Shown: positions 36,150 to 44,371 of the stretch, in pieces | How positions within the stretch are numbered: position 1 is the first letter of the stretch | Layout of the letters: each line of letters begins with the position of its first letter | Assembly: GCA_902812365.1 (NCBI GenBank) | Contig: CADDZC010000006.1 | Location: 1-64,000, forward strand | Direction of reading: 5' to 3' | Origin: Acidobacteriota bacterium | GTDB taxonomy: Bacteria > Acidobacteriota > Terriglobia > UBA7540 | Length of the DNA: 64,000 bases | The notes under the pieces: generated by a model | Told to the model about the DNA's origin: nothing | Databases searched by the model: none | The model's input: only the letters and a program-made list of their open reading frames with translations | Program-made: the position numbers and the translations under genes

Positions 36150-37271
36150 ATGCGCTGGTCCTGGAAGATCGGCCGCATTGCCGGCATCGATATCTATATC
36201 CACGCTACCTTCTGGTTGCTGATTCTCTTTATCGTATTTGCTTACTGGATGCAGGGCCACAGCGTGGCGACGGCCCTGGGCGGCGTCGCGTTCGTGGTGG
36301 CCATTTTCGGCTGTATCGTGCTGCACGAAATGGGTCACGCGCTCGCGGCGCGCCGGTACGGCATCCGCACCCGCGATATTACGCTGCTGCCGATTGGTGG
36401 GCTGGCGCGGCTTGAGCGGATGCCCGAAGATCCCGGCCATGAATTCTGGGTGGCCATCGCCGGCATTATGGTCAATCTGATGATCGCTGGCGCCATCTGG
36501 TTGATCCTGACCGGCCTCGGCCTGCCCACCAGCAGCCGATTCGTTTGGGTTGGCGGCCATTTCTTGAACCGGCTCATGACCGTGAATCTGTGGCTTGCCG
36601 CCTTCAACCTGATTCCGGCATTTCCGATGGACGGCGGCCGGGTGCTGCGGGCCCTGCTGGCCACGCGCCTCGAGTATACACAGGCCACGCAACTGGCAGC
36701 GCGCGTCGGTCAAGTCATCGCCTTCTTCTTTGGGCTGGTGGGACTCTTTACCGGGGATTTCTTTCTGCTTTTCATCGCCTTGTTTGTCTGGATGGGCGCC
36801 GAGCAGGAGGCCGCGATGTTGCAGATTCAGACTTCGCTCGGCAGCATTCCCGTCCGGCGCGTGATGCTGACGGAGTTTCACACCCTCAGCCCGGACGATC
36901 CGTTGGGCCGCGCCGTTGACCTGATCCTGGCCGGCTGGCAGCATGACTTCCCGGTGATGTTTGGCGATCGCGTGCTGGGCCTTCTGACCCGCGACGACCT
37001 GATGAAGACGCTCGCGCAGCGGGGTTCGGAGGGAAGAGTGCGGGACGCGATGCGGCGGGAATTTCAGGTTGCCGACTCTCACGATATGCTCGAGCGCGCG
37101 CTGGCCATCCTGCGGGACTCGGGTAGCCGGGCCCTTCCGGTGCTCCACGATGGCCGGCTGGTCGGCATGCTCACGATGGATAACGTGGGCGAGTTCCTCA
37201 TGATCCAATCCGCTTTGCGGCAGGCACAGCTGGCTGAGAATCAGCGGCAGATGACCCAGGCCAAGCCTTAA
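36150..37271 (+). CDS. site-2 protease family (M50) intramembrane metalloprotease with CBS pair
   Basis: A 373-residue protein. The zinc site HEMGH (His59, Glu60, His63) lies in a transmembrane helix (FVVAIFGCIVLHEMGHALAARR), and the third ligand region is NLIPAFPMDGGR (Asp161). About five or six hydrophobic segments cover residues 15-220. The C-terminal 130 residues form two CBS domains (VMLTEFHTLSPDDPLGRAVDLIL; AMRREFQVADSHDMLERALAIL), which usually sense adenine nucleotides. Such proteases cut membrane-embedded regulators, including anti-sigma factors. An anti-sigma gene lies 6 kb downstream; a link is only an inference. No PDZ domain. Confidence 0.92.
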   Translation: MRWSWKIGRIAGIDIYIHATFWLLILFIVFAYWMQGHSVATALGGVAFVVAIFGCIVLHEMGHALAARRYGIRTRDITLLPIGGLARLERMPEDPGHEFWVAIAGIMVNLMIAGAIWLILTGLGLPTSSRFVWVGGHFLNRLMTVNLWLAAFNLIPAFPMDGGRVLRALLATRLEYTQATQLAARVGQVIAFFFGLVGLFTGDFFLLFIALFVWMGAEQEAAMLQIQTSLGSIPVRRVMLTEFHTLSPDDPLGRAVDLILAGWQHDFPVMFGDRVLGLLTRDDLMKTLAQRGSEGRVRDAMRREFQVADSHDMLERALAILRDSGSRALPVLHDGRLVGMLTMDNVGEFLMIQSALRQAQLAENQRQMTQAKP

Positions 37272-39617: not shown

Positions 39618-41096
39618 TCACGACGCTGGTTTGGCCGAAAATCCCGGGCGATATCGCGTGTTCTCGGTCTTGGGTGGTTTCGGCGGCTCGGGAGCTTTCG
39701 GCGGGTGGGCAAGATGGGGGCCGCCTTGGGCCAAATGAATCGTGCCGTAAGCTGTGGTGAGACGAATCATCGAACCGCCTTTGCCGTAAGAGCCGACGAT
39801 GGAGGGCGCGTCACCTTCGGTGACCACCTTCAGGTTCGGTCCTGAAAAGTCCGATTCCACTTCGCCGTGGCGCGAGACGGCTTGGATCGTGAAACTGCTA
39901 TTGGAGGGCAGCTCCAGCTCGATCCCGCCCTTGGCCAGCGACACCTCAATGGGATGGCTGGGGGCGACGCTGGTCGCGAGGCGGATATCGCCGTTGGTGT
40001 CGGCAATTTTCACACTGTGGATGAAGTCGCTCAGGCTGATGTCCTTCTCGCGCGTCGACAGGTCGAACGGGCCGGCGATGTTTGAGGCTTCAAGCGAACC
40101 CATATCCATGTCGAGCTGGCCGGCCAGACGCTGTACCGTCAGATCGGTGCGCGAGGACGTGTAGCGCAGCGTTTGGGCGATGTGAGCGAACCGCACGTCT
40201 CCGGAGAACTCGCCATTGACCGTCGCCGAGCCGGTCACATCCGAGATTTGCACGTCGCCTCCGCGGCCTTCTACTTCGATGCTGCCCGTGATGTTGCGCG
40301 CCAGGGTGTCGCCCGCCGACTTGTGGATACGCACGAGGCCTTCGACCCCGTTCACGTGAACGTCGCCTCGCTGAGCCGCCAAGGTTTGATCGCCTTGGAG
40401 TCCTTCGAGCACAATGTCGCCGTTCTCAGCCGTGATTTCCGTCGAAGTGTCCTTCGGCACGCGGAGCGTCACGTCGAGTCTCACGTTGCCTCCCCCTTCG
40501 GGCAGGCTTTCGAGATTCGACTGGAAGAGGTAGTGGCCCGCCTGCTGCACGATTGTGAAGCGGAGCTCTTGCGAGAGTTGGCTGGCGGCCGCCTCGTCAT
40601 CGGCCCGAATGCCCTCCTTGACGACCGCTTCAATCGTCGGTTCATCCGAAGGGTGGACGTTCACGTCGCCGCGATGGTCGACCAGTACAAAGTGCGGCTG
40701 CGCTCCGACCGGCTGCGAAATCGTTCGCGTGAACGTGTATGAGTTCCGGAAGATGTCCGCCCAGTCCTCGTTGTTGCCCGCCCACCACGGTCGCCACGAA
40801 GAGGGGCGCAGAACCACATGCGAGATCATCGAACCGAGGATCAGGATCAGCACCAGCAGAACCACTTCGCTACCCGAAAATAAGGGCGGGGCAGCACTCT
40901 CGGGATGAGAGCGAGACTGGATGAAATCAAGGAGTTTCGACAGTCCCCAGAAGATAATGAGGATCGGCCAGAACTTGGCAATGATCACCCAAGGATGCAC
41001 GGCAGGATTGAAGTTCTGATAGAGGAAAATGAAGCCGATGCCGATCAGCGTCAGCGCCCAGAAGATCGATCCGCGGCGATAACCGTAAATACTCAT
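39618..41096 (-). CDS. membrane protein with LiaF-like TM hairpin and DUF4097 beta-helix domain
   Basis: A 492-residue protein. The N-terminus is a two-helix LiaI/LiaF-like module (IFWALTLIGIGFIFLYQNF, then FWPILIIFWGLSKLLDFI). A third helix VVLLVLILILGSMISHVVL follows. The remaining 370 residues form a repetitive DUF4097/putative-adhesin type beta-helix with recurrent GDI/GDV turns (TAENGDIVLEG, AAQRGDVHVNG, EGRGGDVQISD, ADTNGDIRLAT). A proline-rich tail ends it. By topology the beta-helix probably faces the periplasm. It is the last gene of the ECF-sigma operon (112-base gap from the preceding gene). Confidence 0.85.
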   Translation of the reverse strand: MSIYGYRRGSIFWALTLIGIGFIFLYQNFNPAVHPWVIIAKFWPILIIFWGLSKLLDFIQSRSHPESAAPPLFSGSEVVLLVLILILGSMISHVVLRPSSWRPWWAGNNEDWADIFRNSYTFTRTISQPVGAQPHFVLVDHRGDVNVHPSDEPTIEAVVKEGIRADDEAAASQLSQELRFTIVQQAGHYLFQSNLESLPEGGGNVRLDVTLRVPKDTSTEITAENGDIVLEGLQGDQTLAAQRGDVHVNGVEGLVRIHKSAGDTLARNITGSIEVEGRGGDVQISDVTGSATVNGEFSGDVRFAHIAQTLRYTSSRTDLTVQRLAGQLDMDMGSLEASNIAGPFDLSTREKDISLSDFIHSVKIADTNGDIRLATSVAPSHPIEVSLAKGGIELELPSNSSFTIQAVSRHGEVESDFSGPNLKVVTEGDAPSIVGSYGKGGSMIRLTTAYGTIHLAQGGPHLAHPPKAPEPPKPPKTENTRYRPGFSAKPAS

Positions 41097-41208: not shown

Positions 41209-41418
41209 TCATATTCTCGGCCCCTCCGGCGGCCGCGGAGGCGGAAACGAATCCAGCAGCTTCACCACGCCGACTAACATCAGCAACACCGGCCACGTAC
41301 GGGAGAAGCCCCACTCGGGCACGAATTCTTGCAACAAAAACATCACTCCCAAGGCGATCAGGATGATCGGCCCCATGAGTCCGCGACGGTAGCGGGTTCG
41401 CGTTGGCGATGATCCCAT
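41209..41418 (-). CDS. small LiaI/LiaF-like membrane protein
   Basis: A 69-residue protein consisting almost only of two transmembrane helices: GPIILIALGVMFLLQEF and FSRTWPVLLMLVGVVKLLDSF. The pattern G-x-h-FLL ... WPhLLhhhGhhxLL is the LiaF/DUF5668 hairpin also found in the two larger proteins of this operon. A basic N-terminus (TRTRYRRG) suggests a cytoplasmic start. Start at 41418; ATG 41376 is an alternative. Confidence 0.78.
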   Translation of the reverse strand: MGSSPTRTRYRRGLMGPIILIALGVMFLLQEFVPEWGFSRTWPVLLMLVGVVKLLDSFPPPRPPEGPRI

Positions 41419-41487: not shown

Positions 41488-41682
41488 TCAATGACTCCCC
41501 GGCTTCACTCGCCCGAACGTTGTCGCTATTTCCCGCATCTTTTGCCGCTGTTCCCACTCCTTAAAATGGAGCGTCTGTTGGACGCGGCCCTCGCGGTCCA
41601 AAATCTTACTTAGGCACGCAATGGCCGCGAGGCAAACCAAGCCGCTCATGGCGGCCAGCGGGATGAAAGTGCCGAAAACCAC
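41488..41682 (-). CDS. tiny membrane protein, diverged fourth member of the array
   Basis: A 64-residue protein with one hydrophobic segment (FIPLAAMSGLVCLAAIACLS) and a charged tail (LHFKEWEQRQKMREIATTFG). The tail aligns weakly with the REMEHQRRMKEL motif of the three upstream paralogues, so it is probably a diverged copy. GTG at 41682 is preceded by GGGAGGG. It lies 20 bases after its upstream neighbour. Confidence 0.68.
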   Translation of the reverse strand: MVFGTFIPLAAMSGLVCLAAIACLSKILDREGRVQQTLHFKEWEQRQKMREIATTFGRVKPGSH

Positions 41683-41702
41683 TGGCCCTCCCGTTCGCGC
41701 CG

Positions 41703-41933
41703 CTACATTCGCGGCCCACCTCGGTCCGCTTTTGCCTTTTCCAACTCAACATCCAGTTCCTTCATCCGCCGTTGGTGCTCCATCTCCCGTATGCGCAAGT
41801 CCTGGTGAGCTCGCAGCTCCTTCTCGCGTGCCTTGTACCAGAAGAAGACGGCAACAATCACGGCGATCATCGCCGTACCAAAAATGGTCCCCACAATCGG
41901 CACCGCAAACGGTGAGTTGATCAGTTCCGACAT
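41703..41933 (-). CDS. small single-TM coiled-coil protein, array member 3
   Basis: A 76-residue protein with a transmembrane helix (IVGTIFGTAMIAVIVAVFFW, residues 13-32) followed by KAREKELRAHQDLRIREMEHQRRMKELDVELEKAKA, a highly charged helix with heptad character. It is superficially like PspB in size and layout. The ATG overlaps the previous member's 3' end by 13 bases and has GGAGG inside that overlap. The longer reading to 42077 only runs antisense-like through the neighbour and is rejected. Confidence 0.78.
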   Translation of the reverse strand: MSELINSPFAVPIVGTIFGTAMIAVIVAVFFWYKAREKELRAHQDLRIREMEHQRRMKELDVELEKAKADRGGPRM

Positions 41934-42145
41934 GGTTCCTCCGTTTCGCAACCCACGCCAGCGCTTCTGGCCCACGCCTTTTCGAGCCCTAACTCTTTCA
42001 TTTTTCGCTGGTGTCCCATCTCCCGCCGGCACAACTCCTGATGCGCCCGGAGTCCTTTCGCGCGCACTTTGTACCAAAACACGATGCCCGCGATGAATAC
42101 CAGCATCAGGATGGCTACGAGCGGAATCAGGTTTGAAACGTCCAT
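41921..42145 (-). CDS. small single-TM coiled-coil protein, array member 2
   Basis: A 74-residue protein: transmembrane helix LIPLVAILMLVFIAGIVFWY (residues 6-25), then KVRAKGLRAHQELCRREMGHQRKMKELGLEKA. It shares the AHQEL-x-x-REM-x-H-x-R-x-x-KEL core with its neighbours. After residue 57 the tail (WARSAGVGCETEEPCRN) leaves the family pattern and reads into the ribosome site and start of member 3, as if the original 3' end had been lost. GGAAAGG precedes the ATG. Confidence 0.75.
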   Translation of the reverse strand: MDVSNLIPLVAILMLVFIAGIVFWYKVRAKGLRAHQELCRREMGHQRKMKELGLEKAWARSAGVGCETEEPCRN

Positions 42146-42169
42146 TCGCCTTTCCAGCCCGAAAGGTCC

Positions 42170-42391
42170 TTACGAGCTCCGGTTCATCTTGGTCTTTTCC
42201 AGCTCCAACCGAGCCTTCTCCACTTCCAACTCTTTCAGCCGGCGCTCGTGCTCCATCTCACGGGTCCGTAATTCCTGATGTGCCTGGAGTTCCTTCTCGC
42301 GCATGTGTCCCAGCGTCTTCAACGCGACGATGAGGACGACCATCGCGAACCCTCCTAGAGGAACAATCAATCCGGCGTGCCAGAAGTCCAT
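42170..42391 (-). CDS. small single-TM coiled-coil protein, array member 1
   Basis: A 73-residue protein: transmembrane helix GLIVPLGGFAMVVLIVALKTL, then MREKELQAHQELRTREMEHERRLKELEVEKARLELEKTKM, the longest uninterrupted coiled-coil tail of the array. GAGGAAG lies three bases before the ATG. It sits 38 bases after the B-box/TM2 gene. The extension to 42553 is not supported. No named family was recognised. Confidence 0.78.
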   Translation of the reverse strand: MDFWHAGLIVPLGGFAMVVLIVALKTLGHMREKELQAHQELRTREMEHERRLKELEVEKARLELEKTKMNRSS

Positions 42392-42429: not shown

Positions 42430-43104
42430 CTACGGTCCGTGCGGGCCGGCTGCTGCGCCTCCTGCGGCGCCACTGGTTCCTGACGGCGTCCCGCCACCTC
42501 CCCCACGCCGCTGCAGCAATAGCAGGCCGACCACGATCAACAGTACAGGCCAAAACCGGGAGATCGATTGAAATACGTGAACGCCAAGATTATCCAGCAG
42601 GAACAGTATGCCGAGGCAAATCAATATCCCGGCCCCGATCGGCGCGTTCAGCCTGAACTCGCCCAGTCCCAGCCACTCTTCCGGCGGTTGACCGAGCTGG
42701 CGGCGCTTGGCTGTCTGGTACGAATCAATAACCATGTAAAAGTAAAACGCCGCTGCGCCGAAGCCGAAGATCGTATCCAGCGGACCGCCCACCCGGTCCG
42801 TGAGGGCGATGAGCGACCCGAAAATCAGTACCTGAACCACCGCCTTCACCACCTGACCGTTGTAAATGGCTCCCACGCCGGGGATGAACCCCAGGAAAAG
42901 CGCGAGGCCAGGATTCGGCCCTAGGTTCGCTCCGAGGATCGGCGGGCCGACATGAAACCCGCGCATCCGGGCGGCGGCGGTTGCCAGGCAGCTCTCGCAG
43001 TAAATCATGCCCTCCACGCCCCGCTTGCATTGGGCGCACAGGGCGCGCCCGCACTGCCCGCAGTAAGCGACGGAATCGACTTCCGGGTGGGCAGAGCATT
43101 TCAT
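42430..43104 (-). CDS. B-box zinc-finger / TM2 / LiaF-like membrane protein
   Basis: A 224-residue protein. The N-terminal 40 residues form a B-box-type zinc finger (CSAH, CGQC, CAQC, CESC). A TM2-like region follows (PGLALFLGFIPGVGAIYNGQVVKAVVQVLIFGSLIAL, then FGFGAAAFYFYMVIDSYQTAKRR). The C-terminal LiaF-type hairpin reads ILICLGILFLLDNLGVHVF and FWPVLLIVVGLLLLQRR. The tail is Gly/Ala-rich. ATG 43104 overlaps the anti-sigma stop (ATGA). It probably senses or transmits an envelope signal; this is inferred from operon context only. Confidence 0.85.
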   Translation of the reverse strand: MKCSAHPEVDSVAYCGQCGRALCAQCKRGVEGMIYCESCLATAAARMRGFHVGPPILGANLGPNPGLALFLGFIPGVGAIYNGQVVKAVVQVLIFGSLIALTDRVGGPLDTIFGFGAAAFYFYMVIDSYQTAKRRQLGQPPEEWLGLGEFRLNAPIGAGILICLGILFLLDNLGVHVFQSISRFWPVLLIVVGLLLLQRRGGGGGTPSGTSGAAGGAAAGPHGP

Positions 43105-43790
43105 CGGGGCACGCTCCTTCGTGGGCGAATCCGCGGCGTCACGGCCATGCTGGCGTGGAACGGCCAGGCGTCTTCCCGCCCTGACGGCAGCGCTCCCGCC
43201 AAGGCCAGTTGGAGGTCTGACGGCGGTCGATCGTGGGTTGAACCGCCGGGCGGCGCCTGGGGTCTTACAGCGGGTTGGCCTTCCCCGGGCTGAGTGCGGA
43301 GCTGCCGGAGTCGCGACTCAATCTCGTACACGACCCGGAGGTCGTAGCAATACTTCTCGGCCCGGCCATACAGCAGATAGCCGTTCCGCTCTATCTGATA
43401 GACCCAGTTGCGCGGATTGAGGTCCCGAAGCCGGAGGTTTCGCAGATTGATGCCGGCAGCGTTAATGACGACGGAGAACGAAAACACCGCCATAGCAAAG
43501 ACGTAGACCGTGCGCGGCTGGAACAAAGGGGGAAGGAAGGCCGAGATGCGGTCCCGGAGAGTGGGGCGTCGCTTACCAGTGGTAGCGAGCACGATCTTTG
43601 ACAGCAGCCGCGGGGCCGGTTCGAGCTCTTCCGCCGCTCGGCACAACGCGATCGTGCTCTGCACGCTCTCTACCAGCTCCCGGCAAGCGAGGCAAGCGGC
43701 CAAGTGTTGCTCCACCGCCACCCGCTGGTCAGCGGCCAGCTGGCCCTCCAGGTAATCGCTCACCAAATGTTCCACTTCCCAGTGCGTCAT
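43101..43790 (-). CDS. zinc-finger anti-sigma factor
   Basis: A 229-residue single-pass protein. The N-terminal anti-sigma zinc finger contains the H-x3-C-x2-C motif HLAACLAC (VEQHLAACLACRELVESV, residues about 27-44). One transmembrane helix lies at TVYVFAMAVFSFSVVINAAG near residue 94, and the C-terminal half is probably periplasmic. It would hold the cognate sigma factor inactive at the membrane. It overlaps both neighbours by ATGA, so the sigma:anti-sigma ratio is likely set by translational coupling. Confidence 0.9.
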   Translation of the reverse strand: MTHWEVEHLVSDYLEGQLAADQRVAVEQHLAACLACRELVESVQSTIALCRAAEELEPAPRLLSKIVLATTGKRRPTLRDRISAFLPPLFQPRTVYVFAMAVFSFSVVINAAGINLRNLRLRDLNPRNWVYQIERNGYLLYGRAEKYCYDLRVVYEIESRLRQLRTQPGEGQPAVRPQAPPGGSTHDRPPSDLQLALAGALPSGREDAWPFHASMAVTPRIRPRRSVPR

Positions 43791-44371
43791 GCGCCTTTAC
43801 CTTGGTCCTCCATCTCTTGCATACGTTTCAAGACCCGCGCCAGTTCCAGTCTGCCGCGGTTGATTCGGGACTTGACCGTTCCTTCCGGGACGCCCAGCAC
43901 TTGTGCAATCTCTTGATAATCCAGGTCTTGCAAGTCGCGCAGGATCACGGCTTCGCGCATCTCGGGCGAAAGTTTCTCGAGCGCGGCCTGCACCCGTTCT
44001 CGGCGCTCGCGCGCCTCGACGCGGCTGACGGGATCGGCGGCCGGATTGTGCCGCCCCTCCACCTCCCCCAATTCGTCTTCGAGTGAAGACGTCAGCCGCT
44101 CTTTCCGGGTCCGGCGATAATGATCCACTAGGTGGTTGCGCGCTACCCGCCAAAGCCAGGTGGGGAAGCCACCCTGGGCTTCATCATAGGTTCGCAAAGT
44201 GTGGAAAATCTTAATGAAGACCTCCTGGGTTAGGTCTTCCGCCTCACTGATTCGACCGGTAAAACGATAACACAGGTTGTAAACCTTCCGGGCGTGTATC
44301 CGAAGCAATTCCTCCCAAGCTGAGTTGTCCCCTTCAAGGCACCGCTTCACCAACTCCCGGTCGTGTTCCAC
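43787..44371 (-). CDS. ECF-type RNA polymerase sigma factor (RpoE-like)
   Basis: A 194-residue group 4 sigma factor. Region 2 has WEELLRIHARKVYNLCYRFTGRISEAEDLTQEVFIKIFHTL with the -10-contacting DLTQEVF. Region 4 is LSPEMREAVILRDLQDLDYQEIAQVLGVPEGTVKSRINRGRLEL, a helix-turn-helix for the -35. It starts with GTG preceded by AGGAGAGG. Its anti-sigma factor follows with an ATGA overlap, then seven membrane-protein genes in the same direction. ECF operons are often autoregulated; no consensus ECF promoter was recognised, only an extended -10. Confidence 0.93.
   Translation of the reverse strand: MEHDRELVKRCLEGDNSAWEELLRIHARKVYNLCYRFTGRISEAEDLTQEVFIKIFHTLRTYDEAQGGFPTWLWRVARNHLVDHYRRTRKERLTSSLEDELGEVEGRHNPAADPVSRVEARERRERVQAALEKLSPEMREAVILRDLQDLDYQEIAQVLGVPEGTVKSRINRGRLELARVLKRMQEMEDQGKGA

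Follow-up and report, generated by a model that had tools for sequence, protein, structure and literature searches.

What are the four tiny membrane proteins encoded side by side within a sigma-factor operon of an Acidobacteriota bacterium, and do they take part in what that operon does? The stretch of DNA analysed here (64,000 nucleotides; hereafter the window) carries, on its minus strand, four consecutive open reading frames from 42391 to 41488 that encode related proteins of 64–76 residues, each with a single N-terminal transmembrane helix and a REMxH core. The leading copy, t1 (42170..42391, 73 aa), is of type A in the tree. According to the tree and codon model, t2 (41921..42145, 74 aa) is B-like, apparently relaxed and placed on a long branch, and its 3' end overlaps the next gene by 13 nt. 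That gene, t3 (41703..41933, 76 aa), is of type B (tree), while t4 (41488..41682, 64 aa), which has a GTG start, is a diverged type C (tree). Pairwise identity among t1–t4 is 20–44%. A profile built from them and searched against their own genome matched these four places only, the next match having E = 0.46. The tandem array of related small single-transmembrane proteins proposed by the sequence-only reading is thus borne out.

The array and its operon

The four genes lie inside a minus-strand operon, as that reading had supposed. Upstream of them are genes for an ECF sigma factor (43787..44371; Pfam Sigma70_r2 and r4_2, NCBIfam sigma70-ECF), a zf-HC2 anti-sigma factor (43101..43790; PF13490, E = 4.5e-8, with NCBIfam anti-sigma models below cut-off), and a membrane protein combining a B-box-like zinc finger with a LiaI-LiaF-like transmembrane region (42430..43104; PF18917, E = 1.8e-10, LiaF-TM above cut-off, and a zf-B_box match at E = 4.7e-4, just below cut-off). 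Downstream of t4, the order continues with a 69-aa LiaI-LiaF-like transmembrane protein (41209..41418; PF18917, E = 2.2e-9) and a LiaF-TM protein with a Toastrack (DUF4097) domain (39618..41096; PF13349, E = 7.4e-15, PF18917 and LiaF-TM above cut-off).

Toastrack, LiaF-TM and B-box contexts with a linked sigma factor have been described as PSP-like envelope-stress systems (Ravi et al. 2024, PMC11237479). The PspA-free LiaI-LiaF-TM/Toastrack operons of that work share LiaF-TM, B-box-like and Toastrack proteins and a linked sigma factor with the window operon. However, no tiny single-transmembrane proteins with a charged helix were found described in the portion of that source consulted, whereas the bacterial family of the window has one to four of them inserted. 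Classical PSP membership was ruled out, as the window's own genome has no match to PspA (PF04012, E ≤ 0.001) or PspB. The operon is therefore of an already described kind, namely a PspA-free Lia/PSP-like envelope-stress operon, and appears to sense envelope stress via its sigma factor. Simple consensus patterns, applied with crude start assignment to the region upstream of the sigma gene, revealed no conserved ECF promoter. On the plus strand, approximately 2.3 kb past the Toastrack end of the operon, an open reading frame (36150..37271) resembles by eye a membrane site-2-type metalloprotease with a HEMGH motif, and is a candidate for anti-sigma cleavage.

The tiny proteins themselves are an undescribed family. 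None of t1–t4 scored above cut-off against Pfam or NCBIfam models, so that these searches placed them in no well-characterised family; PADLOC returned zero matches, and the view that the protein type has no name holds. A sequence search of the PDB with the tiny proteins gave nothing meaningful, and a fold search of the PDB with the t3 model gave no match. Searches against PHROGs yielded weak matches only, the best being a holin for t3 (E 1e-4), which we read as chance similarity of a transmembrane-plus-charged-helix protein. As the sub-threshold transmembrane matches in a Pfam scan of family members were scattered, we trusted no single weak Pfam name.

The transmembrane helix is clear in all four copies (mean Kyte-Doolittle 2.3–2.8). 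Among 90 proteins of the family, its N-terminal flank holds 2 Lys/Arg against 43 Asp/Glu and its C-terminal flank 323 Lys/Arg, and by the positive-inside rule these charge counts predict an N-out/C-in topology. The AlphaFold (AF2) model of t3, computed with 45 sequences, is one 62-residue helix (10–71, pLDDT 85), the predicted cytoplasmic part of which contains many Glu, Arg and Lys residues. The coiled coils that the sequence-only reading expected did not fare as well. The contrast in a/d hydrophobic periodicity gave p = 0.49, 0.66 and 0.13 for types A, B and C, respectively. A canonical heptad coiled coil is accordingly not supported by this periodicity test, which is not a dedicated coiled-coil predictor, and the test found no amphipathic periodicity for packing in types A and B. 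All three types showed a weak 11-residue self-similarity (lag-11 z 2.5–2.9 among 16 lags), although these signals are not independent given that the types are related.

Distribution, order and constraint

Tiny proteins were present in 30 of 36 relatives belonging to the window's bacterial family. Gene order in the fetched loci of this family is that of the window operon, the B-box gene being followed by one to four tiny-protein genes and these by the LiaI-like gene, except for contig breaks and for stray copies in one genome. In that genome (G024), an additional B-type gene lies outside the main operon, near two contig ends (L066, L076). Copy number across the family ranges from 0 to 4 with core operon genes retained. 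In one family member (G030, locus L181), both the array and the LiaI-like gene are missing and the sigma, anti-sigma, B-box and Toastrack genes are joined directly; the array is thus dispensable for the operon core. Two further genomes (G012 and G017) have the array and no LiaI-like match.

Outside the family, a search of 200 genomes of the class recovered relatives of the B-box protein in the majority. Approximately 20 loci, spread over about ten further families of this class, show the order ECF/anti-sigma/B-box/(LiaI-like)/Toastrack, with little or no space for an extra gene at the junction where the array stands in the window. Given this array-free arrangement, insertion of the array probably took place in the common ancestor of one Acidobacteriota family. 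A search of 396 genomes of the phylum with a 45-row profile of the tiny proteins also recovered strong, single, stand-alone homologues in a family of another class (f32, L108–L113); no other genes of the window operon were detected near them within the fetched stretch.

In a tree of 90 copies, type C forms a clade (support 99/98) separate from types A (86/83) and B (89/75), which are less firmly supported in this short alignment. The fourth copy of the window falls in the C-type clade on a very long branch, in agreement with its earlier description as a diverged copy, and has Gln at a position occupied by an invariant His in the 45-row alignment. Types A, B and C are common to many genera of the family, and their order is unbroken across loci, with A or B occurring twice where there are extra copies. 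In G015, whose B-box protein is the most similar to that of the window (76% identity), orthologues of t1 and t3 are 63–72% identical to the window copies. As this exceeds the identity among the window paralogues, the duplications are older than these genera. The array does consist of related genes in one operon, as the local gene duplication first suggested would have it, but the duplication is not a recent one.

Whole-clade codon models gave omega values of 0.094 (A), 0.112 (B) and 0.187 (C); the A and B sets include t1 and t3 of the window, and t2 and t4 were left out. For the window's own branches, other branch lengths were held fixed, so that the p-values are approximate. On these branches, t3 had omega 0.04–0.05 (omega = 1 rejected over full length, p = 2e-10) and t1 had omega 0.08 (p = 4.6e-5 over full length, p = 0.08 for the core alone). 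For t2, omega was about 0.19–0.24, with omega = 1 rejected at p of about 0.003–0.004. Neutrality of t4 was not firmly rejected (p = 0.12 over full length; 0.013 for the core, with the estimate at the boundary). In their own genome, then, t1 and t3 look constrained, t2 looks relaxed or drifting, and t4 looks indistinguishable from neutral. Intact B and C copies are present in G015. In another relative (G020, L062), the middle copy of the array is shortened to 50 aa, another sign of single-copy decay.

These results bear on whether the genes are merely the product of a recent local duplication, or small reading frames decaying without function, which we consider very improbable. The very long branches of t2 (1.34) and t4 (2.49), together with the near-neutral behaviour of the latter, are what such decay would leave. 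For the family, however, it is contradicted by three types common to many genera in the same order under omega of 0.09–0.19, and by the rejection of neutrality for t1 and t3 over full length on the window's own branch. A dN/dS near 1, which would have spoken for decay, is therefore not a property of the family as a whole; decay may apply to t4 and, less so, to t2. Given their age, their order and the selection acting on most of them, the copies probably function within the apparent stress-sensing system of the operon.

Relation to DUF6249 proteins

Nearly all weak matches of the phylum-wide search were DUF6249-like proteins (PF19762), fitting the tiny-protein profile at their N-terminus, and those tested matched DUF6249 with scores on either side of its cut-off. 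Compared by hhalign over 37–45 columns, the tiny-protein profile reached 75% with a Pfam-picked DUF6249 set, aligned at the right place, and 98% with a profile-picked set, whose selection is partly circular; four other proteins of the operon reached 0.3–1.8%. Conversely, eight of 45 tiny-family members matched DUF6249, all below the curated cut-off of 33 bits (best listed E 0.0025). DUF6249 itself had no match in the window's own genome at E ≤ 0.001.

Both kinds of protein have an N-terminal transmembrane segment and a juxtamembrane helix. The tiny proteins end after this one helix, whereas DUF6249 proteins have a further helical half after a loop (helices 70–102 and 115–137 in a predicted model), probably two transmembrane helices. 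The tiny proteins and the N-terminal DUF6249 segment may have a common origin. The match spans only about 40 residues, and since the shared part is mainly membrane helix, the kinship is suggestive rather than proven.

DUF6249 genes often stand beside an ECF sigma gene in Acidobacteriota. An ECF gene adjoins them in about 11 of 12 profile-picked loci (one ECF gene, at L120, being read from translation, and that of L119 inferred from close similarity to L120) and in four of five Pfam-picked loci. The chance of such adjacency, estimated from the 16 Sigma70_r2 genes of the window's own genome, is approximately 1% of genes; several of the loci come from the same genus, hence not all are independent. 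At L114–L118, L120–L122, L124, L125, L133 and L135–L137, the DUF6249 gene is mostly beside the ECF gene and often divergent from it. In the body of literature searched, no paper linked DUF6249 to ECF sigma factors.

Possible roles beside the sigma and anti-sigma factors

At a probability of about one half, we favour a role for the tiny proteins as accessory subunits, anchored in the membrane, of the sigma/anti-sigma envelope-stress sensor, in which they would work in the manner of PspB or YhdK. PspB (PF06667) is likewise about 70–75 aa long, with an N-terminal transmembrane helix and a cytoplasmic helix, is encoded in an envelope-stress operon, and acts with PspC in signalling (PMC9239133). 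Its curated model had no match in 41 genomes, and PspB had none to t1–t4 at E ≤ 10; four of 45 family members matched it weakly (best E 8e-4). YhdK, of the Bacillus subtilis SigM system, is a membrane protein whose gene accompanies those for sigma and anti-sigma, as is the case for the tiny proteins, and is the second membrane protein required with YhdL for full anti-sigma activity restraining SigM (PMC6827917). The likeness to YhdK is an analogy of role only.

Under this proposal, the predicted N-out/C-in transmembrane helix of each protein would extend into the cytoplasm as a charged helix. Types A, B and C would pack in the membrane beside the anti-sigma, B-box/LiaF-TM and Toastrack proteins, and we infer that their helices might stabilise or gate anti-sigma binding to sigma until envelope stress rearranges the complex. 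The proposal draws on the retention of the array between B-box and LiaI-like genes throughout the family, on the same core genes in the array-free operons of other families, on purifying selection in all three types (omega 0.094–0.187) with clades in fixed order, on the charge counts and the single-helix model, on the apparent DUF6249 kinship with the ECF genes adjoining DUF6249 relatives, and on the published analogues. The array-free operon of G030, the stand-alone f32 homologues, the lack of amphipathic periodicity in A and B, and the shortness of the DUF6249 match count against it.

The main rival is that the tiny proteins are sigma-induced outputs that, like LiaI, or like PspB/C in its membrane-protecting role, would directly stabilise the inner membrane; this is possible, though we lean away from it. 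It would agree with the position of the array downstream of the regulators and adjoining LiaI/LiaF-like genes, with a copy number that varies from 0 to 4 without loss of the core, and with a genome in which another membrane protector would be useful as PspA is absent. On the other hand, DUF6249 relatives lie beside sigma genes, often with no other operon gene detected nearby, a setting that suits a sigma-circuit partner no less well, although this adjacency is not decisive, since a target of the sigma factor could sit there too. The apparent kinship with DUF6249 also allows a reading of the tiny proteins as short members of the DUF6249 type that act, mainly independently of the Lia-like operon, in another ECF system, say, or in the membrane generally. 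The profile match to the DUF6249 N-terminus, the homologues in f32 and the B-type copy outside the operon (L066) would be in keeping with such a role, yet nearly all copies found in the window's family are inside the Lia-like operon, and we regard it as unlikely.

The accessory-subunit proposal has a wider version, which we hold to be rather doubtful. DUF6249-type N-terminal helices would be an accessory module, widespread in ECF sigma circuits but unrecognised as such, which the window's family would have stripped to one transmembrane segment plus a charged 11-residue-repeat helix and triplicated as an ordered hetero-oligomer in a Lia-like sensor. The results also mark DUF6249 proteins as probable partners of ECF sigma factors, a role open to testing for a group of membrane proteins that are as yet uncharacterised. 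For the operon itself, the analysis adds an undescribed small-protein family to an apparent envelope-stress system, and shows the place and the lineage of its insertion.
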